A stretch of 64,000 nucleotides of DNA from Echinarachnius parma (lineage: Eukaryota; Echinodermata; Echinoidea; Clypeasteroida; Echinarachniidae). Made by a program: the position numbers and the translations under genes. Location: assembly GCA_037951105.1 (NCBI GenBank), contig JBAMJV010003026.1, forward strand, positions 1 through 64,000, in the 5' to 3' direction. The notes beneath the pieces are model-generated. The model searched no databases. It saw only the letters and a program-made list of their open reading frames with translations, and had not been told where the DNA came from. Positions 4,933 to 58,300 of this stretch are shown one piece after another. Position 1 is the stretch's first letter; every line of letters begins with the position of its first letter.

Positions 4933-5115
4933 CTACACGGTGTAGAACTGAGTGGCGGCCGAAGACTGGATCTCAATCTGCCCCATCTTGAACTGCAGGC
5001 GTTTGAGCCACTTGAGCAGGGTGGTGGAGTGGTAGGAGGTCACCTCCCCTTTCATCAGACTTGGAGGAGGCCAGTTCTCACAGTTTTGCAGTCGCACCTG
5101 CAGACTGCCTGGGAG
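4933..5115 (-). CDS. UNC79: UNC79 terminal coding exon e43 with stop codon
   Basis: It encodes LPGSLQVRLQNCENWPPPSL, then HSTTLLKWLKRLQFKMGQIE and IQSSAATQFYTV before TAG at 4935-4933. The end matches vertebrate LRKWLQCTQFKMAQVEIQSSEAASQFYPL. The acceptor is GATGGTAG, in phase with e42. Confidence 0.96.
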   Translation of the reverse strand, partial: LPGSLQVRLQNCENWPPPSLMKGEVTSYHSTTLLKWLKRLQFKMGQIEIQSSAATQFYTV

Positions 5116-8100: not shown

Positions 8101-11100
8101 TTTGTTTGTAGCACCTACCTTTGCCAGGACTGAGGAGTTGCATTCTTGCAGTGCTTCCATCAAGCTCAGGAAGTGCAAGTTCACCATGTCCGCAAGCTGG
8201 GTAGGATAAAAACAAAAATAGAGGAAAGAAAATAAGACTTTCACTGCAAAATGGTTCAATGTTTTCTATATGTTTGCCTTTCATTGGCATGAAATATATA
8301 CATATGATTAAATACTGCGATTCCAGTTGCTGAGATATACATGTATAGAAGGTTATAAGAAAACATATAATACGGTTGATCATAACTTTAAACAAATTAC
8401 CTCAATACGTTATGAGCAATATCTCCTTTGAAAGGGAAAAATATGCATTCTGTATCATACAACATCAGTCTTGCTTTAAAAATGTAAGATTTTGAAACTG
8501 GCATTATGGCAACAAAGTAACAAACCTCTTCAATCTCAAAATGGCTATCTAAAGTTAATTGACTAAACATACTAATTCCCATAAAGCCAATGAATGGCAC
8601 TCTGGGTTCCCCAGTCAGCAATGTGTTTTCAAATGATCTGTGCATTCACAATATGGAATCAAATGCGAACTGATTGTGTCATCTACAGAGGCCGGGGTGT
8701 TTTGTACGTTTGATTCTGGATGCATATGTGACAGTTGGTAAGGGATGTTTCTTTTGAGTATGAAAGTAACTGCAGTACCCCAGGGGTGATGTGACGCCAA
8801 AAGCCCATGAAACTAGAAGAACGTTCATGTAATTGTCTATACATATGTTGTTGATATTGTTTATAAACATTATTGGAAAACAATAACGACTTTAGCATGT
8901 AAGTGTCTACATAGAAGTTGGTGCTATTGACATTCAAGGATGTTTACAAATAATACTCACCACTTTTGAGTGAGACAGTAGCTGCAGTACCCCAGGGGTA
9001 ACGCGACTCCAGAAGTCCATGATACTGAACGTGGCCGTAGTTTGCTGCTCTGAGTTGGCAGAGCTCATACAGGCCATCTGCTCACAGTACATCGTCCACA
9101 GCTAAATTGAGAATACAAATACATGTACTTAGATTCTATATTTGATGACATAAATGGTACCCTGGGGTACCAAACGAATATCCGCCATTTTGTTTCATTA
9201 TTTATTTATTTTTTAGGGCTGTACCAGGGTATAGCGTGCATACAATCGCGCGCTGCACTGCATACACAACGCAATACGGTTGTGCTTCGAGTGGACACAA
9301 GATGGCGCTACACAACGTGGTACCCCGGGGTACCGCGTGTGTCATCATTTAAAAGTTTTTTTTTTGGGGGGGGGGGGGAGGTTGTCTCACAAAGATTCTA
9401 ATTCAAACATATAGAGAAACTGACCAGAAAGATGTAATATACATGAAAAAGAGCAAAGAAAATATCCTGGAGAAATCCCATTTTCTTTGCTCTTTTTCAC
9501 AACGATTCAAAGTTGGGAAGCCATTTGAAGCCTTGGAATAAAACATATTCAAATCAAACATACTGTATATATACATATTTAAGGTTTCAACAAACATTTG
9601 TATGAATAAGTCCAAGGTTCCTTGACAATAACAAATCTAAGTAATTTGTATCAAAATTAATGCATTTTCAAAAGAACAGATTAAACAATTTTACAAAGAA
9701 GCTAATAAACTTTCCATACTAGTAAGGTCCAACTTTGAATATTTGTGTGGTGATATTTCGGCCAGAGGCCTTTGTCAAACTGATTGAATTTGACTTAGAT
9801 TCTATGTCATTTCCATATCTCCTTTCTTCTTCTTGTCATGTCACTTTAATTTGGCTGTGATATCTACTAATCTTTTCAAGCTAAATGCAACAAACTACTA
9901 AATTGTCCATAGCTAGCTGAAGCAATTTTTACAGTTAAATTCGCTAAGTAGTCATTATGAGAATATTTGAGAAAATTTTATTTCAACATTTTCTAGAAGA
10001 TATGTCAAGAAAAGAGTAGGACAAATATAAATTTTTATCATCAAATAGGGAATATGGTACCTCCTATAACCATAGAAAAAAATGCACCCTCAAACTCACA
10101 AACTGTATAAACCCAAGAATTGTATAAAGCATATAAAACATTCAAAATTATCTAAAAATGGTGATACTTTGTTAAATCTGATCATGAATTCAGTAAAAAC
10201 AATGACTAACTGCAAACGTTTCAAAGATAATTTACTAGGGCTCCCAAGTACACACAATTTGGGCATAACATTTGCTTTGATTTGTTAAATTGCTTCAGTA
10301 AAGTATTTCAACCAGTAGATACCTGGCATAAGATGAATGCATGAAATAGAGATGACATGTGAAGCACCGATGCCTTGGACTGCTCAGCAAAGCCGGCTAG
10401 GATGACCTGGATGTGGTCAGCGATGTGGTTGCCAGCGTCCAGCGGAATGGGCGAGCTGACCAGTCCACTATTGGTGAAGGAAGGTGGGCAGAGAGCCGCG
10501 TGAGTAAGAGATCCTAGTAGCAGCCAGGACAAGAGACGTACATGGGCAATGCAGTCTATGAATTCCTTGGGCCTGGGAAATAAAAAGACACAGGAGAGAA
10601 AAAATCATAAGGTTACAAAGAGAGTCGTAACAATATGACTGCATGAAAATGAATGCACCGCAAATATTACCACGTTTACAGTATCAGGACTACTAGCCTT
10701 GCTTGCTAAACTACATCCATAATTATCCATTAATTCTACTGTAAACAACTATCAACCTGTGTCTAAAGAGATCCTGTGAGGGTTAGTTTCTTACCCCTGT
10801 TGGACTGAGGAGGGTGGGTGGTAGAGCCAGGGCAGGTATCTCTGCACAGCCTTGTTACCCTCCCGCCCCATGGCCTTGGTGAACTCTAGGGCCACTATCT
10901 GGGCCACTCCTGCCTTCAGCTGACTACCTAGGGTGTCTTCGTTGAGGTTCTGAGACCCACCACGCAGGTTGTTCTAAAACAGGACAAAAATAAAAGTTCA
11001 TTTATCCTATTTCATTCATTCATCAGAAGGATGAGATAAATTTAGTTCCCTATGCGTGCAGAATGGTTTATAAAAAATTGCATGACAAACGGGTTAGTTT

Positions 11101-14100
11101 TGCGAGGAAGGCCATTAGACATACATATTAGTACTAATATTCTACATCCACATTGAACAATTCTGCAATTTGTCCTCTGACTATGCGACCATGTACCTTT
11201 AATTGTTTTGATTTTTAACAATAGCGTCTTTTCGCACGGCGACATGAGTGCGGCTACGGGGGATTTAAATCAGCTGTGACCGTCCCCGTACTCTGGCTAC
11301 CGTCGCGATCTATTTGCAGTTTCGCAGTGAAGAATACGCGAAACTTCTCCTTGCTCGAGTGACCAAGCGCGCTGATTGGCTGACCCATTGAAGTAAGGGC
11401 TTACCAGACCGCTCCGTAGTAGCTGTACACACAACGCTATTTCGGCCAACTACCGTCGTAGGTTTGGACGATACGCGGAAATTTTCGCTCTGAGTGCGAC
11501 CCCCCGCTAAGATTAGCGTTGTAGAATTTACGCGTCGTGGTTGCGAAAACACGCGAATGTAGAACCACGGGGGTGTTTCACAAAGACTCTATGTTGAACT
11601 TAACATTAAGTTGGACCTAATAATTATGGAAAGCCACTTGTACAGCTCTCCATAATTGTTAGGTTCAACTTAGAGACTTTGTGAAACAACTCCCTGTATT
11701 CTCCATAGACTTCAAACCAAGTATTTTCATATCCAGTCCTGTATCATCATGGGTAGAGGATGAATGAGATAATAGACTTGTCAACTTACCTTGACCTTTG
11801 TCAGTGTGTGCAGGTCACCGATGAACTCAATGGCATCACCAATATACTGCCGCATGCACTCTGTAGCTCCTGTGGAATTCTATTGAGGTTCAAAGAACAT
11901 AGGATAACAAAATTATTCAATTCAATTCAAATAATATGATAACAATTCTGATACAGCAGATAAAAAGTTGAAAAAAGCACTTCCAAATTCAGAACCTTTA
12001 AATGTGTTTTTGAATACAGAAAGAAAAACAACACATTGAAATTTTGAATAAAAAAAAACACATATCAGTTAATTAACTAACCACATCAATCATACTTGAC
12101 AGGAACATTCCTAATGAGGAAACTGAACTTTGAAATGTTTTGGTATGGAGAATTTTTTGTTGTTGAAATGTTGCAAAAAACACCCGTATGGATCTTCGAC
12201 TGCGTGCAGTCGTAAATCATGCCTTCGCTATCACGCAATTTTGTTTTATCAAGCCCAAATTAACATGCACTGAATTATTTCTGTAAACACAATTTTTGTG
12301 GTACTAATCCGTTAACCAGATCTCCAGATATCATAATTACGAGCTATTTTTAAATATATATATATATATGACAAGCCGTGACCTTGACCTTACGACCCCA
12401 AAGTCTAATTAGTTTATTAGCTCCCCAAGATACAAATAGGTACCAAGTTTGATTGTAATTTGTCCACTGGTTCTTGAGAAATGGCAATTAAAAGCTATTT
12501 CTGCACATACATGTATGACTGCTGTGACCTTGACCTTTGACCTCATGACCCCAAAATATGATTGATACATTGGCTTCTTAAGATACATTCAGTTCTTGAG
12601 ATTTTGCTATTACAAGCTATTTTTGCATATATATTGAGCCCTGTGACATTAACCTTTGAACTCATAACCCCCCCAAAATCTAATCAGATCATTGTCACCC
12701 CAATATGTACACTCAAATCAAGTTTGAAATTGATCTGTCACCCAGTTCTTGAGATATCGCAAGAACGGAAACGGGACGAACAGACAACCCCAAAACATAA
12801 TGCCTCTGGCCACTTCATTGGCGGAGGCATACAAATTTTCTAATTCTCAGAAAACTAAATGTTTGAAACTTACCATGGCCATTTCGACCTCGATGTCAGC
12901 CTCCATGTGGCCGAAGTCACTCATCTTGCCTCCAGCATCCATGACCACAAACTGGACCAGCTGAATGAGGTTGATGTCCGGCAGACTGGTCTTGAATTTG
13001 AGCGCTTGTACCAACTCGAGGGAAATGACACGAGCAAAAGACTGCTTCTCTCTCTCCTAAAAAAGCAAGGGTATATGAATTATTTTAATTAAAAGGATCA
13101 TAGAGTATTGGGATGACCATAAACATGTTAACAAAGTCAGTATCTCTTAATATTCTGAAACCGATTGGATAGTGAAGCCAAAATATATCAATCATTTTTA
13201 ACCAACAGTATTTTACTGACCATAAACATGCACCAATTAGAGGGACACAACCAAGCAAAAGACTACTCATAAAACCACCAGTTTGACTGCATTTGTGTGG
13301 CATTGACATCATTGTCACCACAAATTATGTAAGATAGAGAGTTTTATAATCTATTCATATCATTTCCCTACCTTTGCCCAGATCCTGTTGCAGAGTACCT
13401 ATCTCGAGGCGGATGAGCTTGAATCGAGCCTAGAGGATAGAGTAGATGACTACCTTGCCCATAGGCTCAAACAAAGTGGGCACACTCTTGCTTTACATAT
13501 CAGAGTTATTTATTTATCACCAACCTCTTTTTATTTATGCAAGGTTAAAAGGGGTTACTATCCTACCTTTGCAAAGATCCTGCTGCAGATAGTACAGATC
13601 TCAAGGAATTGCGCAAGGTTGAATCGAGCCTTGAGGATAGCAAAGCTGACTTGCCCAAAGCTTGCCCATAGGCTCAAACAAAGTGGGCAGACTCTTGCTA
13701 TACGAGTTATTTATTTATCACCAACCTCTTTTTTTATTTATGCAAGGTTAAGGGGTCACTATCCTACCTTTGCAAAGATCCTGTTGCAGAGAGTGCATAT
13801 CTCAAGGAGGTTGGTGAGCTTGAATCGAGCCTTGAGGATAGAAAAGCTGACTAGCTTGCCCATGGGCTCCAGCAAGGTGGGCAGACTCTTGGTGGCTGGG
13901 CTCCGAAGCAGCACCTCAAAGATGCGGAACAGATCATTCACATCACACTGGTTGCGGGAAAGAAAATGAACATTGGGAAATTAAAGTGATATATTGACTC
14001 CATAAGGTTTCTCTGGAAGTGATAGAAGAGATTTCAATCGTTTATGAATATATTCGACTGGCTTGTTGTTTTGTAGTATATCAGATATATTGCATGAGCT

Positions 14101-17100
14101 AGGATCGTATTGCACTCGTTTTTGACTCGTGCATTATGATCCTAGCTCCTGCAATATATCTGATATACCACTCAAGGCCAGTCAATATTATATAAAATGA
14201 TACCTGATGCAGTGTGTGCATATTTTAGGACACAACTGAGCTTGAATTGAGCCTTGGTGATTAAAAAAAAAACCTTATAAGCTTACCCATGTTTTATCAT
14301 AGGTTCACCATACAAATAACAAAACTTAGGAGCTTGTCAAACTTACATCATCTGGAATATCAATTTGATCCATAATTAATGCTAAATAGAATTCATGGTC
14401 CTTGATATTATGCATAATATACCTGATGCAGTGTGTGCATATGTTAAGCCTTGAGGACATGGGCGTCGATCTGTCATTGATACCCATTCATCAGGGGGGA
14501 TGATCTATTCATTCATCCCCCCCTGATGAATAGTATGCTTGAGGATATAGCAAAGCTGACTAGCTTTCCTATAGATTCTATCATACATTCACAACACAAA
14601 TAATGAAACTTGATGGGCATTTAATAGTTCATCTTACATTTTCTGGCATGGAGGTTATGAGTTTCCTGAAGAATGTGTCGAATATGGGGAATGAGGTTAC
14701 CCCATGCAGCTTGAATCAAGCCTTGAGGATAGAGCAAAGCTGACTAGCTTTTCTGTAGATTCTAACATACATTCACAACCTAAATAATGAACTTTGGCCG
14801 CAGTTCAACTTACGTTTTCTGGCATAGAGGTTGTGAGTTTCCTGAAGAATGTGTCGAACGTGGGGAATGAGGTTGCCTCAAGCAGCTTGAATCAAGCCTT
14901 GAGGATATAGCAAAGCTGACTAGCTTTTCTGTAGATTCTTACATACATTCACAACCTAAATAATGAACTTTGGCCGCAGTTCAACTTACGTTTTCTGGCA
15001 TGGAGGTTGTGAGTTTCCTGAAGAATGTGTCGAATAGGGGGATGAGGTTGCCCCAAGCAGTGGAGCCCTCGATGGGAAGGGCGTCCATGTAATCAGCTAG
15101 GTTCATCAGCACTAGCATCGTACGCAGAGGGGGCAGGTTCTGACGCATGTTCAAGCCCTGAAAAAACAAACAAAAAACAAATCCATTGAAAACAGTTTAA
15201 TTTCAGTATAACATGCAATCTCCACAGACCAAGCCCAAGTAATTTCAGTATAACAGGTTTCGGGCCACTAGAATTTGAACAAATATTGTTTTTACTTGCC
15301 CGACTGGGCCTCAAGGCCAACTAGTTAATTTATGGAATTGGTAAATGGTGGGTAAAAGAACTAACCTCCAACAAATGATTGATGGCATCCATGGGGTGGA
15401 GCTCATTGAAGTCTTGCAGAGCCGAGGCCATGGTTTGCAGGAAGGTTGGATCTACATGAATGAAATATGAATATCGGAAAACATTTATAAACATATCTTA
15501 ACCCACTGCCTATAGGAACCTGGGGGGTGTTTCACAAAGATCCTAAGTTGATCTTAGCACTAAGATGGTCTTAAATATTATGGAAAGCCATTAGTGTCTT
15601 GAAACAGTTTTATAAAAGTTATGTTGAAATGCATAAAATGTTGATTCAAATCATATATATTTTCTAATTATCAAAGAGATTCATAATCTTCACATAAAAT
15701 TCATGAAATCTCTTTGATATTTAGAAAATATATATGATTTGAATCAACATTTTATGCATTTCAACATAACTTTTACAAAACTGTTTCAAGACACTAATGA
15801 CTTTCCATAATATTTAAGACCATCTTAGTGCTAAGATCAACTTAGGATCTCTGTGAAACACCCCCCTGGTGGGTCCTGTATTAATTCTATATGGGAGTTG
15901 CAAAAAATCTAGTAGGGAACAGGTTAAGATTCAGATCAAGGAACATTTGTAATAATTTACTTGGTAACTTTCTTGGCATGTGCAAAAACTTTAGTTTGCT
16001 CTGCACATTATCTATCACTTTCTTTTTTCCAAAAGAGTCTGTGAAAATTTCATGGCAAATTAGCCGTTTAAGGTAAGATACACGTGAAAATGAAAATAAA
16101 GAGAATAAAAAGAACATGTGCTTCAGAAGTGTGACATGTTACACTTACATACAAAATCAGACATAAATGGTTTTTAATATAGATTTAAATATCTGGAGAA
16201 TATCTTGAGAATGTTAGCATTATGAGTCCATTAGAGACACACATATATACGTGCAACTACTGATACTGCACCCCGACAAGAAGTTTTTAAAATTTGTCCT
16301 TTGACAATGTTTATCAAGTACCTTAAAAAAAAAAAACTTCTGGAATAAAGTGTTAAGTCATGTTTTTCTTGTATTATATGCAATATCTTTGTGTGAATTG
16401 AATAATGAGAGAGCTAGAAGATAAAGAATGGATGCATGCTCACCTTCAATCTTTGAGAGGAATAGCTGCGGGAAGACACCATTCGGAGCCAGTTGGTGGA
16501 GTGTGCACCGCAGGAACTGTTTGGCTACAGTGCAGCAATGGCCCGGCGGACATCCAACACTGCAATAAGGAATGAATTGGTCAAAATCTATGATCAGAAT
16601 ACTGCATTTCACACAATGGGTAATTTCAAGTATGGTGTTTGGGGTTGGTGTTAGTGCTTATTACAACACTTAACAACGGCCTTAGGCACCATATTTGAGA
16701 CGACTTCGTGTTAGGATGGTATACAGTGACATTGGGGGATTTCAAATAAATGATGGCGCCCAAGGCCGGTGTTAGTGTTTAATAAACACTAACACCAACC
16801 CCAAACACCATACCTGAAATCACCCATTGTTTCATAAAGTGAATACTGTATATATTAAAGTGGATATATCCGTTGACCGGGGTAATAATAGTAATGTAAA
16901 GCGCTATGATACTCACATGAAGATTGCTATATCAATTTTAAAATGTTATTATCATTTTGGCGAGTGAAACAAAACCATTGCAAATAATTTGGTGGAGATT
17001 ACAATGCTGTTACTGTTTCTAGCACAAATTATAATCATTGGTTCGTTAAATACAAAAGGTTAATTAATTTGCTGACAACTTGTCCTACCCTTTTAAGGAT

Positions 17101-20100
17101 ATTAGTTTTGATTCATTGAACAAATTCACTTCATCACGATTGCTATTTCTACAATAACAATATATTGAAGTAAACATTACCTTTCACTTTGCCATGGGTA
17201 AAATGTAGCTGATGCAATCCTGTTGAACCAAAAAACAATTACAAACATTATATAAAACATGAACATTTTGAAAGAAAAATACATGGCTTAAACTAAGAGA
17301 GATTGCTACTTTTTAGAGCTCCGAATTAAACAACTTAATTATTTTCTTTAGTTGTTTGTTAGTTTTCTTGTTTTCCTTGCTGAACTGTCAACTACTTACA
17401 AAATACTACTACAAATATTATGTCATTTCAATAGCATTTGTATAGGTTGATGTAGGTTTATAAAGCTAAATTCAAGCAAGCAAGAACATTTGAAAGGACT
17501 TCTTGGAAGTACAACCATTAAAGGGACTTTGTGGCTAAATGGTTAGAGCACTCACTGATCCAGTAATCTAAGGTTAGGTTTGATTCCCGGCAAAGGATGA
17601 GTTTCTCCTACATTTGAATTAACATTTTTAGGAATTACAGTACTAACTAAAGATGTTTTCTTAGTTCATTTGTTAGATTGCTTCTCCTACATTTGAATTA
17701 AAATTTTTAGGAATTACAGTACTAACTAAAGATGTTTTCTTAGTTCATTTGTTAGATTGCTTATTTTTCCTTGCTGACCTTCCAACAACTTGTAGCATCT
17801 CCAAGAGGAGAGGAGCCGCCAGCTCTGGGTCCTGGTGGACGAAGGTTGACAGGACAACGATGGCCAGAGAGATGGTGTCATCATCATACTCCTCCATCAA
17901 TGCCCCACAGTCAACACATCTAAGGGAAAATACAAATATAGTCATACTTGTCTTTAAAGGGACTTAGTAACATTGTCCGAATCCTCAAAATAAAATTTTA
18001 ATTCTAGCGGTTCCCTCATACCTTGTTGTATTCGTATTAACAATAAAATCATGGGATCGGTTTCGGTTTTTCAAATTTCCCTTTCGTTACAAAGATATGT
18101 ACGATTGAAGTATTCAGATAAGAAAAACTCAGGTGGAGTTTTGAAACCGTGTACAAAGTGAGTGCAGTGAGTTAGTGAATATCACTTTGCATTTTCGCTC
18201 ATTACTTGGCCATGCAATGTCCATTTGACTTGAAATTTTCACACAATACCCTGAGGACATATGAGATAACAACAATATACAGTACATTGCATCAACCCTT
18301 CATCACTTTTTGCACATGTCAACAAAGTTACTAGATCCCTTTAACAACCAACCTGCCTATAGTGGCCACCAAAAGCAATACACTGCAGAGAAAATCAATG
18401 TTATTGAATTTGTCTATAGAGGACACCAGTCTACAATGGCCACTTTTCTTTGGTTTCCCTTGGGTGGTCACAATACACAGGTTTTACTGTACAACCATTG
18501 TAAATTGTCCCAATGTAAAAACAGATGTCAACTGGCGAATTGAGACAACACAGTTTCATATTGAAACTGATCAATATAAAAGAGATATTGCAAAATGTCA
18601 TTAGATGGCATAACAGAATACTACTCCCAAAGTTCAAATGTTCAACACACAAAAATAATTTGTAACATGGGTTAACCCGTTCCCGACTGGTCCTCCAAAA
18701 CACTCAGCATGGGGTCTATGGAGACTGCATGTTATACCAAACACATCCAATCTTGAATGAGTAAAGAATAGGATTACAAAAGCTTCTTCCAATATTCAAA
18801 ACGTGATAATGCTTGGTGAATTTAGAAGACAGAGCTTCACCTTGAAACTGATCCATCATAATACTCCTTTATCAGAGATGCCAACCTCTGGACCCCAAAA
18901 AACAGACTGAATATCCTTTAAAAAATTGTATTTTGGAGAGAAAAATCATATTTTCACGAAAACTCGACCTACACTCAGATCAAATTATCTCCCAACTTGC
19001 GCCAGGCGTAAATTTTGATGAGATCATACCGACATGTGTAAAATCAATAAATTCATGAAAATTTCCCCTTATTTGCAGACACCATTTTCATAATTCTAAT
19101 TTCATTATTTGTCTCGACTAATACGACAAATCTTATTGCCGAATGAATGCGCAATCTTCGCTCAATCGAGTCTCAAAACGTAACACGATCAGTCTGCCAA
19201 GGCACAAACTACATGCGAGAGCAGAGCCAGAGGAATAAAAATGCAGTGTTTCACGCTTTAATTCTTCTGTTTATATAGCGATAATATAACAAACATCGAT
19301 GCTTTGATGGATTTATGTAACAATATTCACCAGTTCACGGAAATATAGTAACAAAATATTCAGAATTACCTCAGTTACGAGCAAAAAAATAGTTTTCCCG
19401 AAGTATAGGAACGAAAACTCTAGCGCTTGTTCAACATGCGAACGTTGTCGTTGGCCAAGCTGCTTTATCGTTTTTGAATTGCCCACAGTTTGCTTCTTTT
19501 TTAATTCTTTTTCTCGGATGTTTATTCACTTGAAGTTTTAGGCCCGTCAGTGTCAGCTTCCGGCGGATTAGGCCGTTTCGAGGATCCTGCTTTCAAGAGA
19601 AAGCGCTCCATGTTGCGAGATATTTGTTCTGAATAAAAATGCAAACGTATCCGAATTTCGTTGTGTATACATGTAGCTTACGAGATTGCCAGCGCAGCTG
19701 GCTAATGTATGTACGTGTACAAATAGTTACGTACGTAAACGTTTGTACATCGAGTCAATCACGTAGCTCACGAGATGCGATGAGCGGTATATTTAGGTAC
19801 CGGTTCGGTATGCCATACGTACACTTGCACAGTGCAGTATAGGAGCGCTAGAGCTGCCTGGATGTTCTGCGAGGCAGGGTTCGATCACAGCGTTACTGCC
19901 GATTCCGCGTGTTTCCCGCCAATGTAGGCTCGTTGTTCAACGTTTTTGTTGGGGTTGCGGGGGTTTACTTGTACATGTTTCTATGCGATTCCGCGGTTTA
20001 TATCGTTTTTTGTGTGTTTTTTTGTTTTGAAAGATGAAAAGATGAAAAGTCGTATTTTCAAGAGGCGATATCATATCGTATTTCACTTTTTTTATCGTAC

Positions 20101-23100
20101 TAAATACGATAAAATGGTACTGGTAGGCATCTCTGCTTTATCAATGCTCCATAGGAAGCAAATCACAGGGTAAATACATCAAAGGGTTCTAGTAACATTG
20201 TCCAAATCCTCAAAACTTACTTGGAACTATACAGTGTGAGTAAAAGAAAAACGTAACCGGACTTTGATAGCTTATAAATCCACAATTCTAAACTTATATA
20301 TGTTGATATTGGTATCATGTTAAAACTTGGCAATTTGCCATTAACATGATATATCATAGATTTTGATCGCTTTACGCTTCACCGAACACGACCTTATTAT
20401 CCCAAGTCATCCAAAAACTACCCGTATCCAAGTTTGCCGTTGTCTTGTTCCATCATGAATGGATGCGTCTGTTTACCGTTTTTTCAAAAGAACATTTCAA
20501 GAAAATCCTTTGGTGAATCAAAATACAAGGCTCTGAGGTGATCAGAGTGTATGATATATAATTTTAAACGCATTTTCCCAAGATTTAACATGATACCAAT
20601 ATCAACATATAAATGTTTAGAATTGTTGATTTTTAATCTACTGGAAAGTTATAACTGTGCACAAAGTCAGTGCAATGAGTTAGCAAATATCACTTTGCAT
20701 TTTCGCTCATTAACTGGCTATATAACATCCATTTAATGTGAAATTTTCCCACAGTACTCCGAGGACATATCAGATCACAAAACTACACATTATACCAACC
20801 ATTAATCACTTTCTGCACATGCCAACAAAGTTACTAGATCCCTTTAATGGGTCCCATGCTTTACTTGCTATATCTGAATGGTCATTAACTGATGTTGATA
20901 TGTTGTAATATTTGAACATTATAGTAACAAAATTGCTCATTTGTTCATCAACATCAACAACAACAACTTCTATTACTTCTGCTATTAAAAAACTACTACC
21001 TGTATTAAACAAAGCACTCACTTGGTAAGAGCCATGAAGTTCTTATCTTCATGGTAGCGCCTGACCGCTGAGTACACACTGCTCCTCTTCTCTGGTGGCT
21101 TCATGGCCTGCTCCTTCAGCTTCTGTGATCTCTTCTTATCTGGTTTGCCCGGCCTCCCTTCCGGGGAGTCTGCTGGCAGGTCAAACTGGACACCCTCCCC
21201 TCCCACGGAGGGGGAGTTCTCCTCACCACCTCCTCCACCTTGGCTGGAGGAGAGGATGGAAGCCACACCCATCTTGCGAGTCTTCTTTGATCTGAACTTG
21301 GGCTGGATGGTCTTGGGCTTGGCCTCTGTGACAGTGGTTGTATGGATGGTGGTGGTCTTGGCGGTCTGTGGTTCCAGTGTATGCATCTGGACACCCTGGA
21401 TCTCCATCACCTGTGGCTCCACGCTCTGGATCTGCATGACCTGTGGTTGGACGCTCTGCACCTGCGTCACCTGGGGTTCCATGCCGACGATCGTTGGTTC
21501 CATGCTCTGGGTTTGGTTCCCCTGCACCGACATGACCTGTGAGTCCACACTCTCAATCTGCATGAACTGTGGTTGGACGCTCTGCACCTGCATCACCTGG
21601 GGTTCCATGCTGACGATCGTTGGTTCCATGCTCTGGGTTTGGTTCCCCTGCACCGACATGACCTGTGAGTCCACACTCTCAATCTGCATGAACTGCGGTT
21701 GCACGCTCTGTACCTGCATGACCTGGGGTTCCATGGTCATCATCTGTGGTTCCATAGTCTCCAGCCGCATGACGCAAGGTTCCATGCTGTGGGATTGGTC
21801 TCCTTGCACCTGCATGAACTGCGGTTGTATGCTCTGAACCTGCATGATTTGCGGTTCCATACTCATCACGTGTGGTTCAATGCTCTCCAGCTGCATTACT
21901 TGGGGTTCTAGGCTCTGTATCTCAAGACTCTGAACCTGAAGACCTTGTACAGGCTGCACCGTGGCTGTCTCTACCTCTGTCTCCATCTGTGGAACAATTA
22001 GAAAGGCAACAATAACATTATCGATATGGAAGATATTTAAAGTGAGGCCTGTAAAGTGTCAGATATTGCCCAAAATGACATTTGAGACTTCAATCCTGTA
22101 CCAAAATCATTGTAAGATATGTCCGAATGATGTGTGAAAGTTTAATTGAAAAAGAACACTGCTTTCCTGGTTAAAAAAGCGAAAATATGCATCAGCTTTT
22201 ACAACGGACGTTTATGAGGTTTATGACCATTTGTTAACGCTTTTGGCTGAATGATAGATATCGTCATACAAAAGGGGCATTTGAAAAAATCTAACCTTAT
22301 TTTATTCTTCTCTTACCATAAGCTAAACAACACGGTAGAAGAGAAACGAGGAAGCTCCAAGTAATTTTCGTGGAGTTACTGACACTTTACAGGCCTCACT
22401 TTAATCATTGCGGATGAAATGCAATGTGGAAATTAACCATTTGTCTCACAAATTAAATAATCAAGAATACATACCGTATTTACTGTATTAACCGCACCTT
22501 TTTTCTGGCAGATAGGAAAATTATACACGCAAATTGCCTACTTGAGGAAAAAAAGTTCTTTTTAGACACCTTGTAGTGCTGTTTGGATACATACAAAACT
22601 GGTCTAGGCTCCCATAAGAGCTTACTGCATTAAGTAGCATCTATCAATATACCTTTACATTTTCTCATATCAAAACAAGTGGTTAATGAAAAATCAAAAT
22701 TGCGGTTTAATGAGCAGTAACACACTGCTGCTCATGAATATTCATATATTAGACACATCTCCGATCCGGACAGTTGGCTACAACCAAACTGGAAAGGTGT
22801 GACTTGACAAGGAATCTTAAACAAAACAAAAAACAAGATAAGTTAAATTGAGGAATTAGCAAATATGTGGAGGATGAAATAATATATTTTCATGACCACA
22901 AAATATTTGTCACTTATATTGCTGATACTTATATACAGTCATTTGATAAAAAACTCTGATTTTCAATCAGATTTTCTCACACCCCTGCTTAAGAATAGAC
23001 TCTACCAATACTGGGGAATTCCCAGTTATTGGAAGAGTCAATTTATATGTAGGGGTGTTCAAATATTTGCAGGAAAACTATGTTGAATATTTAGCAGATT

Positions 23101-30793: not shown

Positions 30794-30869
<76 letters not shown>

Positions 30870-30943
30870 CCATCATCACCATCATCAACATCATGTTTGT
30901 AATCAAAATCATTTCAATCATTATTGCCATCATGATCTCCATT

Positions 30944-30989
<46 letters not shown>

Positions 30990-31292
30990 ACATTGACATC
31001 ATCCTCATTATTGTACCCATCTTCATCATCATCATTGCCAACATAATCATCATCAACATCATCATGGTTGTTCTCATCAACATTGACATCATCGTCATTG
31101 TCGTCCCCATCTTTATCATCATCATCATCATCATCATCAAAATCATCATCATGTTTGTACTCATCAACATTGACATCATCCTCATTGTCGTATCCATCTT
31201 CATCATCATCATTGCCAACATAATCATCATTATCATCATCAACATTGACATCATTGTCATTGTCGTCCCCATCTTTACCATCATCGTCGTCG

Positions 31293-31326
<34 letters not shown>

Positions 31327-46300: not shown

Positions 46301-49300
46301 AAATTGATTACAGAAATGGACAGTTTCAATCCATGGTTTATCTGTAAACAGTCAGGGCATCATGATCATTGATATTAATGTTTCATCCCAAATCATTATT
46401 ATTCCTTATAAGTTTAATGTTATCTTGTTGCGTCATGCTAGCAATTTTCTAGCCGTCACCGCCCTCCTAATTCTCCAGTATTTCTCATCCTTCTTTTATT
46501 GTATATTCAATCTCATCTCCCATTTCCCCCTCCTCCTCCTGAATCAACTTCTTCTTCTCTTTAATTACCATTTTCAGAAAGTAGTTTGCACAGTACGTGC
46601 AGGGGATAATGTTCTTTCCAACCTTGTAACAGGTTTCTGAGACGTTCTTTAAACACTGTCGGCTCTTCTCATTTAGATTATGAGTTAATAGCTAGTACAC
46701 ACATTGTTGTCCAATGGTATAAGAGAGTAATTGCCCATTTTCTCCTAAATGACCTAATTTCCATAGACTAATTAACACATAGCTAGTCCACCAGCTTCTT
46801 GCAGGCAATGGGTGATGAGATAACCAGGGGGTGTTTCACAAAGATCCTAAGTTGATCTTAGCACTAAGATGGTCTTAAATATTATGGAAAGCTATTAGTG
46901 TCTTGAAACATTTTTCAAATCATATATATTTTCTAATTATCAAAAAGATTCATAATCTTCACATAAAATTCATGAAATCTCTTTGATAATTAGAAAATAT
47001 ATATGATTTGAATCAACATTTTATGCATTTCAACATAACTTTTACAAAACTGTTTCAAGACACTAATGGCTTTCCATAATATTTAAGACCATCTTAGTGC
47101 TAAGATCAACTAAGGATCTCTGTGAAACACCCCTGGGGCTTGCCTTTAGCAGTGGCCTGGGTGCTACTTAGCCATTTGCCCAGCAGAAATTTTATCTGTC
47201 CTCTTGCCCACCAACAATTATGATCTGCAACACACAAGTCTTTTGTTGGAGTCAACGGATGAGTCATTTTAGCAACCAGACAGAAAAGCTGAAGGGATCG
47301 AGGGCCCTAGCCGTTACCTACCTTTGAAAGTTTCTTGTGCTTGCTCATTCCTCTGTCCATGATGCCCTTGTTCTTCTTGCCCTTCACGTCGTTGGTCTTG
47401 CAGATGGTGAGAGCCTCCTCCAGACAACGCTCAAACTGGTACTCGGAGACGTCGGGCATGTCGCACACCTTGGTCTCGCCGCCTGGTGCGATGCGTTCGA
47501 GCAGCTTGAGGGCGAGCTGGAACCAGAGTGCCCACAGCTCGCACACCGGGCACGACACCATCTTGGCTCCGTTCGTCGCCATGCCCTTCACAAGGAGAAA
47601 GGGGAAGCTTCGATCATACCCATCATGCCATTTATAGGGAAGAACAAACTCGTTTTTCATATCAAAGATACCAGCGACTTTATCCAGGTAGCAAGATCTG
47701 GCAGATAGTTTGATAGTTTTAATGCAAAATGCATCATATATAGTTGGAAAATATCAAATTTAAGAAGCAAACATCAAGTGAATGCAATCTTAAATGTCAC
47801 ATAGTCTTACTGAAAAACATTATACTTTAATATATAATGGATTTTTGCATTAGAGATAGATTTCCTAGCTATTTCGAACCTTATAATTGTATGCAAACCT
47901 GACCATATTTTGCAGAAAACCAAATTTAAGAGCATTGAAGTCAGCTTTTTGGCAGCTGTATGCTGCATTTTTGGGAAAGGTCAATCTTTAGAAGTCAGTT
48001 TATTGACATCAAACATTCATCATTAATCCTTACATGAAAGTTTGCTTCACACTTGTGACCGATCGATGGACCTCTTCCGAGCCTTGGCCTTTTTCCATCT
48101 TGGTTGGTTGGCCCCCTTTGTTGATTCCATTTTGAAATTGTAAAACCTTATATTTGTATACAAACCAGACCAAAGTTTGCAGTAGGCCCAATTAATATAA
48201 GAGCTCTTAATTCAGCCTTTTGGCAACTGAATTTGTGGTACGGTCAATTTATTGAACATCAATCGATCATGCATCATGCTTACATCAAAGTTTGCTTCGC
48301 ATTTGTGGCCGATGGACCTTTTCCGAGCTTTGGCCCTCCACTTCCCATCCTTCCCCTCCTTGTTGGCTTGGTTGTTCCCCTTCTTGCTCCCCAAGCCGCC
48401 ATCCCCACACCCCCCTCCTCCTCCTCCCTCCGCTTTCTTCTCCTCATGCTCCTCATCCTTGGGAGCGTTGGGATCTACCATGCTCTCAGTCACCCAAGGG
48501 GTGTGCAGCATACTGGTGAGGAGGGACACAAAGTCCTTGGACTGGGTGTGGTCCAGGCCCTGGTGGAACGGGTGGTACTGCAGGTCGCTCTGTCCACCCG
48601 GGATGAAATGGAAAAGCAAAGTCCATAAATGGAAATGAAAACATGTCGACTACACTTTAAATGATGACAAATAGTACTATATAATAATAAAATAATGTAT
48701 TCCTAAGCAAAGAGTTGCCGAGTGCTAACACAGAGGGAAGAATCGTGTGTACATCACCATGCATGAGAGCTATCCTATGTTACTAATAACAAATCAATTT
48801 GTGTGCTCCTTCTTAAACAACTTGTAAAGCAATATATACATAACATGTTCTCCCCACTAGTTATAAGCTCATTACAGACATTTCTCCACCAGCGTTGAAT
48901 ATACCACATGCATTTTTAACAAGCATTTTGTGCACTATTCTTTACTTCTAAGCAATAGCATCTACATAAAAAGTTCAAAAACTATTAAATACATGCAAAA
49001 GATGCAAATAAATTGATCATGCATTTTCTGTAATTATTTTTAAAAAGACTTTAGGAGTGATATGATTTAAATGGCTTCAGCATGCACACACATCATTTGA
49101 AAGGGATCATCTGGAATTCAGTTATATCATATTTAGTATGTCTAAATTATCTTCTCCCTCAAAGACAATATGGCATGTCTATATACTCCTTCTCTTTAAA
49201 AGTTAATGCATAATCAACAATTTGTCATGCAACTTGTATATGGTCTACAGTTATAGTACGTGTTCAAGACTAATTGGGCATATACCCATGCATTACCCAT

Positions 49301-52300
49301 AGATCCTAGCCCAAGTGTGTTGGGGACCAGTCATGAACAGGTTAAAAACAGTGACAGGCAAATCTAGAAAGCATCTACAAATAGGGAATCTAAATGTGTT
49401 TCTCTTTCAAAGAGATAATTTTTCAATTTCAATTTCAATTTATTCTTGCTTCCAACAAAACATTACAAATGAATAATGATAATTTGCACAAAATAGGGAT
49501 ATACATATTGGAAACAAGCCCAGTCTACTCATTCTTTCGCAAACAAATGCAATATATCAATGCTATCATCATATATGTCAGTGAATATAATCATGCACAT
49601 GCAAATGTCTAAATGAAAATAAAAATGCAAATCTAACATGCATACCACCAAGGACCAGGAGACAAGTGAACAAACAAGGACACGTGGGAGCTGTGCTGTC
49701 GAGTCATGGATACGAACTACACTGCCGGACACAGTACTGCATGCGTACATGCATTATTCAGCTGGAGAAAAAAGCAATCAGAAATATATGCTTAAAATAA
49801 TAAACTTTTAATAATCAGTGAACAATCGGGGCATAAAGATAATATCTAGTGTCACATTTACTTTAAAAGTACATTTCAATTTAATTTCTGTTTTCCGATT
49901 TTCATTTCAAGACATTCTACTCCAACATGCCACCCATGTCATTTTCACCACCACATCCACGACCACAACCACTATCACCACCATCATCTTCATATGTACC
50001 ACCACAACCATCATCATCCCTACATCGATTACCAGTAGGATGAGGAGATCCAGCATCAGCAGAAAGCATTGCACAACTTTCTTCTTCATCATCACCACTT
50101 GTGTAATCATCACCATCACCACTATCTTAACCACCACAATCACCCCCCCCCCCCCCTCCACTACCATCATCATCCCTGTATACATCCATTACCTGTAAGA
50201 TGAGGAGATCCAGCATCAGTACAAAGCATCTCAGGACATTTTTCTCCATCATGCAATGCCACCAGAAACACCATCATCAACACCACTACCAAAGCCACAA
50301 CTACAATCATCAACACCATCAATACCACCATTAACACTGATATTACATAACCCCCCCCCCCCCCCTTACACCACCACTGTACGTCACAATCCCTGTGTAT
50401 GTTACCTGTAAGATGACATACAGGCATCAGCACAATTAACATCTCAGGAATTCCTCCTCCATCAATGCCACGAGTGTCATAATGAAAATCCCCACCACCA
50501 GGACTAGCACCATAATAGTATTGCCGCTATCATCCTCATAAATACCACTAACACCGATATAGCCACCACCACCACCATCATCTACCATCTTTCTATTCCT
50601 CTCTACGCATTTAGACTTGTAATTGAGAATTGTAATGTTGCACTTTATAAAAGAATGGATTATTATTATTATTATTATCATCATCCTTAAATCCTGTTAC
50701 CCGAGATGATAAGATTTAGCATCAGCACAAAACATTTCAGGAATTCCTCCTCCATCAATGCCACAAGTGTCATAATCAAAATCCCCACCACCACGACTAG
50801 CACCATTAGTATTGCCGCTATCATCCTCATAAACACCACTAACACTGATATATAGCCACCACCACCACCACCATCTACCATCTTTCTATTCCTCTCTACG
50901 CATTTAGACTTGTAATTGAGAATTGTAATGTTGCACTTTATAAGAATGGATTATCAATATTACTATTATCATCCTCCTTAAATCCTGTTACCTGAGTTGA
51001 TAAGATTTAGCATCAGCACAAAACATCTCAGGACATTCTACTCCATCAATGCCTCCCGTGGCATCATCATCACCACTGCTAGCCACAACCACATCTATAT
51101 AACTACCATCACCATCATTCCATCATCTGTTACCTGTCATCATCATCACCACTGCTAGCCACAACCACATCTATATAACTACCATCACCATCATTCCATC
51201 ATCTGTTACCTGTCATCATCATCACCACTGCTAGCCACAACCACATCTATATAACTACCATCACCATCATTCCATCATCTGTTACCTGTCATCATCATCA
51301 CCACTGCTAGCCACAACCACATCTATATAACTACCATCACCATCATTCCATCATCTGTTACCTGTCATCATCATCACCACTGCTAGCCATAGCAACCACA
51401 TCTATATAACTACCATCACCATCATTCCATCATCTGTTACCTGTCATCATCATCACCACTGCTAGCCATAGCAACCACATCTATATAACTACCATCACCA
51501 TCATTCCATCATCTGTTACCTGTCATCATCATCACCACTGCTAGCCACAACCACATCTATATAACTACCATCACCATCATTCCATCATCTGTTACCTGTC
51601 ATCATCATCACCACTGCTAGCCACAACCACATCTATATAACTACCATCACCATCATTCCATCATCTGTTACCTGTCATCATCATCACCACTGCTAGCCAC
51701 AACCACATCTATATAACTACCATCACCATCATTCCATCATCTGTTACCTGTCATCATCATCACCACTGCTAGCCATAGCAACCACATCTATATAACTACC
51801 ATCACCATCATTCCATCATCTGTTACCTGTCATCATCATCACCACTGCTAGCCATAGCAACCACATCTATATAACTACCATCACCATCATTCCATCATCT
51901 GTTACCTGTCATCATCATCACCACTGCTAGCCCCAACCACATCTATATAACTACCATCACCATCATTCCATCATCTGTTACCTGTCATCATCATCACCAC
52001 TGCTAGCCACAACCACATCTATATAACTACCATCACCATCATTCCATCATCTGTTACCTGTCATCATCATCACCACTGCTAGCCACAACCACATCTATAT
52101 AACTACCATCACCATCATTCCATCATCTGTTACCTGTCATCATCATCACCACTGCTAGCCACAACCACATCTATATAACTACCATCACCATCATTCCATC
52201 ATCTGTTACCTGTCATCATCATCACCACTGCTAGCCACAACCACATCTATATAACTACCATCACCATCATTCCATCATCTGTTACCTGTCATCATCATCA

Positions 52301-55300
52301 CCACTGCTAGCCACAACCACATCTATATAACTACCATCACCATCATTCCATCATCTGTTACCTGTCATCATCATCACCACTGCTAGCCACAACCACATCT
52401 ATATAACTACCATCACCATCATTCCATCATCTGTTACCTGTCATCATCATCACCACTGCTAGCCACAACCACATCTATATAACTACCATCACCATCATTC
52501 CATCATCTGTTACCTGTCATCATCATCACCACTGCTAGCCACAACCACATCTATATAACTACCATCACCATCATTCCATCATCTGTTACCTGTAGGATGA
52601 GAAGATCCAGCATCAGCACAAAGCATCTCAGAACCTCCTCCTCGGTCTGCTCCAGTTTAGCCTTCTCATCCTGGTCTGGGCTGAGCGGGGATGGGTCTAT
52701 CGTCACGTGGGGAGGCTCAGCGGGGAGGGTGCCCCCTACCCCATTAGTTGGGGCCACTTCCAGGGGCAGAGTCTTTGGAGAGCTAAGGGCACTGGGAATT
52801 TCAGTGGGTTTCAGTGCTTCTACCGGTTTTAAGCCCTCACCAACCTGAAAAGATATCCAGTGGTATAGATGTACAGTCATCATGCAACCATGAAGTAATA
52901 TGAAGTTAATGATATAAGTATTACCTTTTCTTTTATACTCTAGCTGAATTGTCACTGTATTTGTCATTTGTATGTTATGGAACATATAACTATACCAGTA
53001 CAACATATATGATTCAGGGAAATTAAATTATCCCAAAGTATCCCCATAAGCTAAAATCCCCCAGCCCCTCAAAAAACAACAACAACAACAAACAAACATA
53101 TAAAAACACAAGTATCATTTTTATCAGACTTAATATTAGGATAAATAGCCATGAGAGGGTAGAAAATCATTCGTTAATTTGAAATTAAAACAAATAATGG
53201 ACAAGCAGCATGAAATTCAAACTCAAAAGTATAATTAAAACACACAAATAGACACACATATAATGGAGAATAAATGTATCTACCAACACAATTGCCAGTT
53301 TGTCAGTCTTACTTTAGCAACAGAGATTGGTGTGGAGGGCATAAGAGTATCTGTAGAAAACTTGATCACGTGGCGCCCATCCTCCCCTTTAGCCTTGGTG
53401 CCCTTATCTGCCGAGGCGTGTACGTCTGGGGTGTTGGTAGGGGCATTGCCGGGGGAGTTGCCAGGGGCAGGGGCTGCAGCAGCACTGTCAGGGGACAGGG
53501 TCTGGTGTGTCTTGGCGTACATGGCTACCTTGGCCCGCTGGATGTCCATGATGGCCGCCAGACCCTCGTTGAACATGGCCAGCAGCATCTTGTTGGGAAT
53601 CACAATGTCCATCTCAGACAGAACCTATATACACATATTAGTGAAAACAAAATGGAAAATAAGAAAGTGACCATCTTGAGGGGAAAATGCATTAATAGTA
53701 TGAAGAAAGCTGATGTATGAAATTGTAAGATTGAATAGGAATGAGAAAGACAAAGAGATTTGACTTTGAAATAGGAGCTTAAACAGCTGTGCACTCAAAC
53801 CAGATACACAAACACACAAATCTAGACCTCTGAATTGCTGAATATAATTCTTTGAATAGTTTCCCAAAACACTGTTGCTGAGTTGTTCAAAATGTTACTC
53901 CTCCAACTAAAATAATGTTCATAAAACAACAGGAATAATTAACAGGGAAACACAAGTCAGTTCCGTCTCTCCTAACGATACACATGTACACATGTACCAA
54001 GTTTGATGGTAACCCGTCTATTTGTTCTTGAGATAATGTGATTATGAGAATGGGATGTATATGTACTGACAACCCCAAAACTTAATGCCTCTACCCACTT
54101 TGTTGCGGAGGCATACAAATGTAAACTAATCCAGAGAGAAATGTATACCTGTAACCAGAGAAGGGCCTTCTCCTGCTCCTTGGCCTGAGACGTCTTGAAC
54201 TTGACGGAGATGAAGTGGAACATCTTGTCAGAGGAGAAGGGCAGCGGGCACATGTCGATGTCAAAGAGCTTGCAGAGGATGTCCTGAAGTTGGCCAAGTT
54301 CCTCTTCTTGGATCTCTTGAGAAATGGCTTCCATCCACGCTGGCATGATGTGGTCCCAAACCTAAAAAGAGAAGTCAAGAAACTATTGTTAAAGGTACAT
54401 GTTGAGTATTGGTAATTCCTGAAATGCCCCTTGACACTAAATTGGTTGGTTTTCATTCCATTTGAAATTTCATTGAATAAAACATGTAAAATGAGAATCA
54501 TTCCCTTTCAAATACTCTCATAGTTGTAAAATTTGATTTCAAGATGTTTTATTCATAAGTCTACTGGCTGGGGGACATTTTGAATTTTTAGAAAAATACA
54601 AAAAATGCTTATAGACTACTTTGAAAAAAAATCAAAATAGGTTTTTAAATAGTTGTTGATGTTATCTCTATTTAATCATTATTTTAACAAAACATCAAAT
54701 GCACAATTTTGTATGAAAAATGGCAAACACCAAAGAGTTTTTAGAAAGCGCCCTCTTGAGTTGTAACGGCTCTTTTTTTAATGATAACAGGGTTTTTACT
54801 TAGTCGTTTGAAATTGTGTATATCTTACGAGCATGGTGGAGTTATTTGTTTGTACCGTAATAGTGCAGGTTTTGGTTACTAAAGTTAAGTTTGACCAAAA
54901 CTCAACTATCCCTTTAACAACAAACTAATTGTCTACTTTAGGAGAATAATTTCTTGGAGGAATGTAAAGGAGCTTGCAGAGGATGTCCTGAAGCTGACCA
55001 AGATCTTCCAGATACAATTACATAGTGTAAACAGACATATTTTGCTGAAAATGTGATGACAGCAAGACACTACTAAATGTACAGTATGTACATAATTTGA
55101 GGCCATGTGAGGATATAGTTCTTCAAAACAGTTTCCAGCTACAAAGGCATAGTGTGGTTCAATCCACACATCAATGGAGAAGAAAATTTCTTACAAGACT
55201 ATATTGAAATATCCATTCGAATGGGATTAACTATCGCAACTGATAAAAAGAAAGCTGACAAGCATGGGATGGTTGTTATAGTCCTTCCCGTGCCAATTTT

Positions 55301-58300
55301 GGCCCTAGGCCATATGTCTACTATACGTAGTGAAAGCTACAGAAGGGGGCATGGGTACTCACTTCAAATGTGATGGTGTTATACGGTGTGAGTGCAAAGA
55401 TTTTCTTGAGACCATCATGAAGCTCTGTGATCCGACTACAAAGAGTGTCCCTGAAAGATTAAAATAAACCAACACGCATTTCAAAACTTTGAAAATGAAG
55501 ATGATCGAAATACAATGTATAATGAAGTTATTCATTCTCTGATTGAGAATAACATTTAATTTCCCTTGATATATTAACCCTAACCAGGCCGGGTTATTTT
55601 GGCTATGCTCTGGTCGGGGGGGGGGGGGGGGTGGATTCCACCCCCCCCTCAGATCTCGGCCGTCGAACGCGCGGCCGCCACAAAATTTGGCACGCAGATA
55701 GCTTGCAACATAATCTACAAGATTGCGTTGTTGTTTTTTTGAAAATAATCAATTTTTAATTAATTATGCAAATTTATGCATAAATCCCCTTTTTGTCTGT
55801 AAATCACTAAATATTGATCAGAATATGCTAATTTTTTGCATAAATATTCTTTATGACTTAATTAACAGGTTTTGAACAATAAAAATTGCGACAGCCAAAA
55901 TTTTCCTTATGTATTTCTTTGTTTTTGGAATTTCTTATGTATTTCTTTGTTTTTTTTTACTTTTGTTTTTTATTGTTTTTTTCAATGGAATAATTTGATC
56001 ATTATCCAACCATTTTCAGCCCAAAATTAAATGATTGCAGTGATTAGAATGAAAAATATTGAAGGTTTTGTCTATTCTAGGAAAAAAATTTCCATAGGAT
56101 TTGTACCCAAATCACAAAATTAAGCAATTTTCGGGCCGACGCACACTTACAAAACGTCACGTGACTTTAGAACGGTGTACCCGGTCATCGCAAATTTCGT
56201 CTCAAATTTGCGCAAGACTTCAATGAAAAAACTCATGAAGTCGCGCGGCAATACCGGCGCGCGTTGCGGAATTATCGCGCAAAAAGTCGAGGGGGGGTGG
56301 ATTCCACCCCCCCCCCCCCCCCCCCCCCCCCGGCCTGGTTAGGGTTAAGCTATTTAAATGTGAGACTTACTTGTTATTGTAAATTGATAAATTAAAACTT
56401 TACTCTAAAGTGGTGCCATGATACCAACTGCAATCGAAATATAAAACATTTTATATATATATATCCTAAAAATTTAATTTTAAAACCATTTAGATCACTT
56501 TTGTGGCCTGATAACTTCTCCACAATCTTTGTAGCAAAATATTGTTTCAAATATATTTTAAAACAATTTCTCATGTAAAATAGATCATCTAAATCAATGC
56601 TATAGAGATGAACTTTTTAGTCTTGTGACCCAGTGCCCAGTCAGGCAAGTAAAAACAAGATTTTTGCAAATCTAGTGGACGAAAAACTGAATCTGGTGTC
56701 TGGTGGCACCAAACAATGATTTTTTAAAATTTATTTGTTGTTAAACTTGGTTGCCCATTTAGGCCAGTAGATTTAGCATCAATTAAATTTGGGGGCCAAT
56801 AGCTATTTTTAGTGGCCCTGCTGGGCCAGAGAGCCCATTTTAATTTTGAGCATTGTCTAAATATTTCTCAAACGAGTTTTTGTCATCAATATCAAGTAGA
56901 GATAATATAGAAAAAGAGGTTTTACTCACCAGTGACCTCCGACCTTGGCATACTCTGCTGGGGTCGGCAGGAGGCATGACACAAAGACATTGAATTGAGT
57001 GTTAAAAGAGGTTTTACTCACCAGTGACCTCCGACCTTGGCATACTCTGCTGGGGTCGGCAGGAGGCATGACACAAAGACATTGAAGTGAGTGTTCAGCA
57101 GCTTCAACTGCCATGATGTGGCATACTGCAAATGACAAGTAGCAAATGAAAACATTTCAATTTAATATTTATATAATATTGACTGGTCTTGAGTGGTATA
57201 TCAGAAATATTGCATTCGCTAGGATCATATTGTACGAGTCGAAGACGAGTGCAATATGATCCTAGCGAATGCAATATTTCTGATATATCACGAAAGAACA
57301 AGCCAGTCAATATTATTATTATTATACATACTATCCAGAGGAAAACATTTAATAATGAACAAAAACAGGCATCTTAATCTGTCTTGTTCATTGAAGAAAA
57401 CCAATGCATTGAATCTCAAATTACTGATCAAACATTTTCATTTTTGCGTATTCATATGTCATAAGTAGATACGCGCAAATCCATTCATACGTCATTAGTA
57501 AACGTGCCTATGAATGTGCGCACTAGTAACGCGCGTATGAATGTGCGCACTAGTAACGCGCTGGATTGATGATATTACTCTACTAGGGTAATATCGTCTG
57601 ATATTGAATGGCAAATACACATTTGTAGAGCTGCGTAATACACGTTACGATGGTAATATCATAACAATAATGACCGCTAGAAAAGGCAAGCCCGAGACGG
57701 AAACAAAATACATGTTTTATTGAATTGAAAAACTGGCCTGTATGTGTAATAATACTTCATTTCCCTACTCTAGTGACCACCTGTATATAAAGAACACCCG
57801 TCTATAAAGACCACCATTCTTGACGCAGTTTTCATGTACATGGACCAGTCTATAAAGATCCCCTGCTTACAAAAACCATATTTTCTGTCTCTGTTGAGCG
57901 GTCTTCATAGACAGGTTTGACTTTACAACATATAATAATACTCATTGAAGTCCTACACAGGGCATACATATATTCTACGCCTTGCGGTGTAGAATTAACA
58001 AGTACCACAAGTAGGCAACGGCATTCCTATTTGTATTCAAGAACTTGTAATAATAATAACAAAAACTAAAACGGGACGGACGGAAGGACAACCAAAAAAC
58101 ATGTCTCTGGCCACTTCATTGGCGGTGGCATAATATAGAGAGCATATAAAGCTCCCAATTCCATGTTTGTGAATTTCTCAGGGGGCAGTTGTGTTGATTT
58201 AACATCACCCTGAAGGATATTTGTGGTTGAAATACAAAAACGCTATCAAATACACAAGAACATATAAGCAAAATTTGATCCAATAATGAAACAGTCATAT

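Follow-up and report, generated by a model that had tools for sequence, protein, structure and literature searches.

Partial copies of exon edges in the introns of UNC79 in the echinoid Echinarachnius parma, probably derived from small tandem duplications

'Mirages' is the name given in amphioxus to exon-intron boundaries that have been duplicated in tandem in the manner of a minisatellite. They have been described in the Adh, globin, and troponin C genes, and imperfect repeats in PGBD5 have been likened to them (excerpts of PMC3087553 and PMC3902484). According to the same excerpts, mirage units measure 10-160 base pairs (bp), with 150-160 bp in the globin genes, and haplotypes differ. As the globin 9 mirage is a single duplicate and the PGBD5 copies are imperfect, an array is not required for a mirage, as far as the excerpted text goes. 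Related phenomena include the origin of introns by internal gene duplication (Gao and Lynch 2009, as cited in excerpts of PMC4974935 and PMC3087553) and the small segmental duplications of Drosophila, which are mostly shorter than 500 bp, frequent, and rapidly eliminated by selection (excerpt of PMC6380325). Here we describe exon copies in a stretch of 64,000 nucleotides from Echinarachnius parma (GenBank assembly GCA_037951105.1, contig JBAMJV010003026.1, positions 1 to 64,000; hereafter the window), which carries exons of the gene UNC79. An earlier reading of the letters alone (the original prediction) had proposed that many of these exons have partial tandem copies in neighbouring introns. 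The copies appear to be of the mirage, or exon-boundary tandem duplication, kind, and they very probably arose as small germline tandem duplications that straddled one exon edge and then decayed beside the conserved exon.

As in the amphioxus mirages of the excerpted accounts, the duplicated units span the edge of an exon, both 5' and 3' edges are involved, and haplotypes differ in copy number (here at exons 13768, 14990, and 57022, exons being named by their start position in the window). Regular splicing was reported to be undisturbed in amphioxus. In contrast to those accounts, mostly one or two diverged copies are found instead of arrays, the host is an echinoid and not a cephalochordate, and roughly half of the exons tested have copies. 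With internal gene duplication the copies share the feature that small within-gene tandem duplications are a common mutational input; the excerpted literature on that process focuses on the creation or multiplication of introns, whereas at UNC79 only exon copies and no new intron were seen. The Drosophila duplications are likewise mostly below 500 bp and frequent, yet in the excerpted account they are quickly eliminated, unlike the decayed copies that persist beside many urchin exons.

The window lies at the beginning of its contig, in an assembly of 1.2 gigabases and 14,790 contigs. The gene on its minus strand is UNC79, as the translated exons match UNC79 chains in the PDB (E ~1e-61 and ~1e-81). 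Among the 120 matches listed for the joined exon translation, the best are UNC79 of Diadema setosum (2633 bits) and of Lytechinus variegatus (2626 bits), with sea star UNC79 well behind both sea urchin proteins at ~1800 bits. These scores place the host at a similar distance from the two urchins. Forty coding exons were mapped, 33 of which fall in the range of the original prediction (8.7-57.2 kilobases, kb); the exons encoding approximately the first 291 residues lie outside the window. At 15 of the 40 exons, including the terminal one, the ends lack a clean AG/GT pair, and some edges are approximate. A provisional exon list was used for the shuffle test, the matching of copy probes, the collinear alignment, the comparison of exonic with intronic divergence, and the side counts below, while the final list of 40 exons was used for the ±3 kb scan, the event-overlap test, and the haplotype mismatch counts. 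Two entries of the provisional list, which also missed some exons, were dropped: 23618-23742 is itself a copy, and 55080-55239 was a wrong entry.

Each UNC79 exon was compared with its own surroundings (±3 kb, both strands) by local Smith-Waterman alignment at score cut-offs of ≥25 and ≥20. Same-strand copies were found for 15 of the 33 exons at ≥25 and for 17 at ≥20. On the reverse strand, none of the 40 exons had a copy at ≥25 and one of the 33 had one at ≥20. When the range was narrowed to ±1.5 kb, 14 of the 33 exons had a same-strand copy at ≥25 and none had a reverse one. The control with shuffled exons that had been proposed along with the prediction was run on dinucleotide-shuffled exons (40 shuffles for each of 36 exons of the provisional list, within ±1.5 kb), and its top score of 21 lies below the cut-off of 25 used for copies.

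The 15 exons with copies at ≥25 start at 57022, 54149, 52590, 48284, 41971, 39040, 38532, 36648, 35045, 33129, 27292, 23787, 14990, 13768, and 8961 and are numbers 5, 7, 9, 10, 12, 14, 15, 17, 20, 22, 25, 26, 31, 32, and 37 in mapped gene order. They appear to correspond to e7, e9, e11, e12, e14, e16, e17, e19, e22, e24, e27, e28, e34, e35, and e40 of the original prediction, which gave no exon coordinates; the match takes an offset of two through number 26 and an offset of three for numbers 31, 32, and 37, and the prediction evidently counted exons that are absent from the list of 40. All exons that it named are among the 15, and its claim of at least 13 exons with partial, same-orientation copies nearby is borne out. 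Its statement that the copies usually lie within 1 kb needs correction for exon 52590 (e11), whose copies are 1.6-2.6 kb away. The best copies span 8-87% of their exon and are thus mostly partial, and exon 36648 (e19) has both ends copied, one on each side. The majority of exons have a single diverged copy or two; only 13768, 36648, and 52590 carry at least three, and 14990 has two in register. The authentic exon persists beside its copy, as the urchin proteins align through the exons.

The position of the copies is informative about their origin. In 29 of 31 exons (p 5e-7), comprising 15 of 16 in UNC79 and 14 of 15 in myosin genes from the same genome, the best copy of each exon is found on the same side as the exon edge that it repeats, so that copies of the 3' edge tend to lie downstream and copies of the 5' edge upstream. 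A head-to-tail duplication of an edge-straddling unit with one surviving intact exon must give this arrangement. In 8 of 16 tandem pairs the match continues past the exon edge into the intron for at least 15 columns, and in the other eight for 0-8 columns. Pooled over the eight pairs with at least 15 intronic columns, 53 of 554 exonic positions differ (Jukes-Cantor distance, JC, 0.102) against 111 of 621 intronic ones (JC 0.204); the alignment ends were picked by similarity, and these absolute divergences are therefore low estimates. The ratio of one to two is as expected for a constant exon and a freely changing copy. The intronic part is the more diverged one in five of the eight pairs, two of the eight sharing one exon. 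Nearest-copy distances fall between 150 and 230 bp in 26 of 38 cases (median 204) in a list that takes the nearest copy per exon side of UNC79, myosin, dynein, and chaperonin exons, includes three hand-picked dynein exons, and leaves out exons 52590 and 17779, whose sole copies are more than 1.5 kb off. Outside the myosin loci the units are spread more widely, mostly over 110-270 bp (28 events).

Similar copies occur beside the exons of other genes. From 30 myosin-head loci, seven allelic or overlapping ones were dropped, and among the remaining 23 exons 15 have same-strand copies at ≥20 and 13 at ≥25, with none on the reverse strand. Stricter removal of near-duplicates, which would also drop L041 (without a copy) and L048 (with a copy), would leave 14 of 21 and 12 of 21, respectively. 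Three of six chaperonin exons, drawn from the family table regardless of copies and with flanks of ~0.5 kb, have copies, as do three of three dynein exons, which were chosen because copies were already visible and are excluded from the rates. The dynein profile table contains overlapping neighbouring matches on several contigs; the ion-channel and chaperonin profile tables are too insensitive for counting copies. The expectation that the process extends beyond this gene thus agrees with the myosin, chaperonin, and (hand-picked) dynein exons. Duplicated DNA in UNC79 is, moreover, not limited to exons: among 800 intron segments of exon length, scanned like the exons over ±1.5 kb, same-strand matches at ≥25 are present in 176 if exons are masked and in 240 if they are left visible, and reverse-strand matches are present in 83 with or without masking. 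Across 170 kb in 46 other loci, many of them drawn by repeat or family match so that the sample is not random, 53 direct and 8 inverted local events were counted. In five 8-kb stretches of large contigs, 3.7-19% of the bases lie in local direct repeats, and inverted repeats make up 2.7% and 11.9% of two stretches and were found in none of the other three.

A second contig (C6711) runs parallel to the window with 96% identity over a 1.2-kb probe, and it is read as the other haplotype, both of which the assembly retains. Of 31 copies, 25 are recovered, wholly or in part, in the collinear alignment of the two contigs. Under looser matching criteria, 30 of the 31 copy probes have a hit in C6711 at 86-100%, which for repeated units may reflect a neighbouring unit. 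The haplotypes mismatch at 76 of 6058 exon positions (1.3%) and at 74 of 1858 copy positions (4.0%), or at 35 of 1264 (2.8%) when copies outside arrays are taken; the corresponding figures are 735 of 23219 (3.2%) for other intron and 337 of 8890 (3.8%) for intron within 400 bp of copies. The copies therefore vary like introns and not like exons, and no constraint on them is visible. Approximately 42% of the bases in the UNC79 introns have no aligned counterpart in the other contig.

Between the two contigs, 57 length differences of 30-700 bp were found, 11 of which are tandem by the score cut-off. Three tandem differences are located at exon copies and measure ~203 bp (13768), 176 bp (14990), and 92 bp (57022). 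The window is longer at the first two sites, and the second contig is longer at the third, apparently by one extra unit. Furthermore, a 293-bp difference sits among the copies of exon 52590, and a 79-bp duplication near exon 17779 is present in the window alone. Copy number thus differs between the two haplotypes, in line with the continuing gain or loss that had been suggested.

Taken as a mechanism, a germline mutational process would generate head-to-tail duplicates, mostly 150-270 bp long, at many places in the genome of this sea urchin, with replication slippage or repair as their presumed origin. A unit straddling an exon edge would leave one intact exon and, next to it, a partial copy comprising the edge and a stretch of intron. 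Such an arrangement would be nearly neutral, presumably also in splicing, and could therefore become fixed. Selection would hold the exon while the copy and both intron halves drift, until the exonic part alone is recognisable as an 'exon echo'.

Several observations weigh against this account. Further pieces of exon 13768, at +422 to +1067, lie on the wrong side of the exon, and several copies are not adjacent but 0.4-2.6 kb from their exon. Intronic divergence does not exceed exonic divergence in three of the eight pairs (the second 14990 pair, 41971, and 57022), and six of the 31 copies are missing from the collinear alignment with the second contig. Exon 33129-33254 and its copy are 93% alike in the exon while the flanks of the copy are not recognised, and it could be asked whether gene conversion or selection is the cause. 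Finally, the excess of copies at myosin exons looks larger than the persistence of copies beside frozen exons predicts, in a small sample: at ≥25, copies occur at 13 of 23 exons and, when the exon is masked, for 17 of the 85 segments that flank them (reverse strand, 0 of 23 and 7 of 85).

This last point bears on whether exons are preferred targets. Of 25 local direct events in UNC79, 14 overlap exons compared with 8.8 expected by circular shift (1.6-fold, P 0.019). In simulation, a frozen exon keeps its copy detectable 1.97-2.08 times longer; the excess at UNC79 is within this approximately twofold effect, and no exon preference is therefore needed there. That the process is exon-directed is not shown. 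A distinct echinoid germline duplication process with a unit of ~150-230 bp (about one nucleosome repeat or Okazaki fragment) that favours exons over neighbouring introns, and by which most exons were partly re-copied recently, is a doubtful proposition. It is likewise doubtful that exons are duplication hot spots beyond detection bias, through chromatin (nucleosome-sized units and exon nucleosomes) or through exon replication. The concentration of nearest-copy distances at 150-230 bp and the myosin counts would fit such hot spots, while the broader spread in the non-myosin loci and the modest excess at UNC79 argue against them. The resemblance of a ~200-bp unit to nucleosome spacing or Okazaki fragments is offered as a suggestion. 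A literature search on Okazaki fragments, nucleosomes, and germline duplications gave nothing on germline unit sizes among the titles listed.

It is improbable that selection maintains the copies as splicing decoys or as alternative or mutually exclusive exons. The copy at 36430-36522 keeps its reading frame, with 31 residues 87-94% like two urchin proteins, and the copy at 56930 retains a donor that scores equal to the real one. Exons of this type would be whole-exon copies under constraint, however, and the candidate was rejected on the partial coverage of even the best copies together with their intron-like haplotype variation. An assembly artefact, in which reads were misplaced or alleles left unmerged, is very unlikely. 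Both haplotypes are present in the assembly, the repeats within the 92-bp and 76-bp arrays are nearly identical, and six copies fall outside the collinear alignment, all of which would suit an artefact; against this stand the copies that are collinear in, or matched by, the second contig and the difference of 4.7-21.7% between exon and copy in 15 of 16 pairs, mostly above the allelic difference. Retrocopying of transcript pieces into introns, to which the sense orientation of the exon sequence would be congenial, is just as remote, because retrocopies of spliced RNA contain no intron sequence whereas the copies cross splice edges into the intron in 8 of 16 pairs, keep to the side of their edge, and have similar direct repeats as counterparts in other DNA; the preference of the original prediction for local DNA duplication is supported, and no copy joining two exons was noticed, though no dedicated search was made.

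The positions of the copies beside the UNC79 exons are given in Table 1.

Table 1. Mapped UNC79 exons and copies of exon parts in the window
Feature	Position	Strand	Detail
UNC79 coding exons, 40 mapped	4936..63173	-	placed by two sea-urchin UNC79 proteins
Copy of 3' part of exon 57022-57125	56930..57003	-	92-bp unit, 73/74 identical
Copy of inner part of exon 54149-54361	54962..55008	-	41/47
Five copies, 3' part of exon 52590-52844	50035..51071	-	79-86% identical; 1.6-2.6 kb downstream, past 76-bp array
Copy of 3' edge of exon 48284-48592	48034..48099	-	54/62; with intron flank match 47877-48089
Copy of 3' edge of exon 41971-42136	41789..41857	-	54/69
Second copy, 3' edge of exon 41971-42136	41112..41171	-	50/60
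Copy of part of exon 39040-39188	39435..39530	-	75/89
Copy of part of exon 38532-38690	38751..38840	-	70/89
Copy of 5' edge of exon 36648-36849	36978..37038	-	55/61; with intron flank 36978-37169
Further piece of exon 36648-36849	37646-37693	-	41/48
Copy of 3' half of exon 36648-36849	36429..36523	-	90/95; 36394-36523 including intron flank
Copy of part of exon 35045-35179	35342..35441	-	78/97
Near-whole copy of exon 33129-33254	32876..32967	-	86/92
Copy of 5' half of exon 27292-27518	27571..27692	-	95/113
Further copy, exon 27292-27518	30104-30216	-	88/108
27-bp exact piece of exon 23787-24062	23672..23698	-	no match in second contig
Two copies, 3' edge of exon 14990-15157 plus intron	14639..14885	-	unit 176
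Two copies, 3' part of exon 13768-13947	13372..13697	-	unit ~201
Further pieces of exon 13768-13947	14196-14926	-	±3 kb scan
Copy of 3' edge of exon 8961-9125	8751..8818	-	56/67

Other repeats are also present in the window. An array of a 76-bp unit at 51062-52593 (20 copies, 99% alike) abuts exon 52590-52844, and the matches of the second contig to this array cover only ~470 bp. A 15-bp unit is repeated 35 times (97% alike) at 37113-37633, in the intron between copies of exon 36648. The segments 31632-32404 and 55574-56349 form a same-orientation repeat pair (90% alike), and 6150-7127, 12188-12836, and 27715-28699 are three diverged repeat copies with internal units of ~150 bp. Within the coding sequence, exon 21022-21986 contains an in-frame 126-bp tandem repeat of ~2.6 copies (Tandem Repeats Finder, TRF). 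Two 126-bp length differences between the contigs, in opposite directions, apparently lie within this repeat, and its net length may be unchanged.

No earlier report of exon-boundary copies in sea urchins was found among the papers listed in the literature searches. Within the reach of these searches, the occurrence in an echinoid, the density of copies, which reaches about half of the exons tested across three gene families, the predominance of single decayed copies, the pooled divergence ratio of two to one, and the unit near 200 bp are new. As the divergence between an exon and its copy is one-sided, it can serve as a clock that dates each duplication. Gene predictors are at risk, as intact-looking copies could be picked up. 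The copies may be a source of raw material for new introns and splice sites; splicing of the copies themselves, and the contribution to new splice forms that the original prediction envisaged, are hypothetical. Should roughly every second exon in an animal genome adjoin a decayed copy of its own edge, the spliceosome would constantly be offered duplicated splice sites; cases in which tandem duplication adds an intron or shifts a splice site could then be counted and would no longer be anecdotal.

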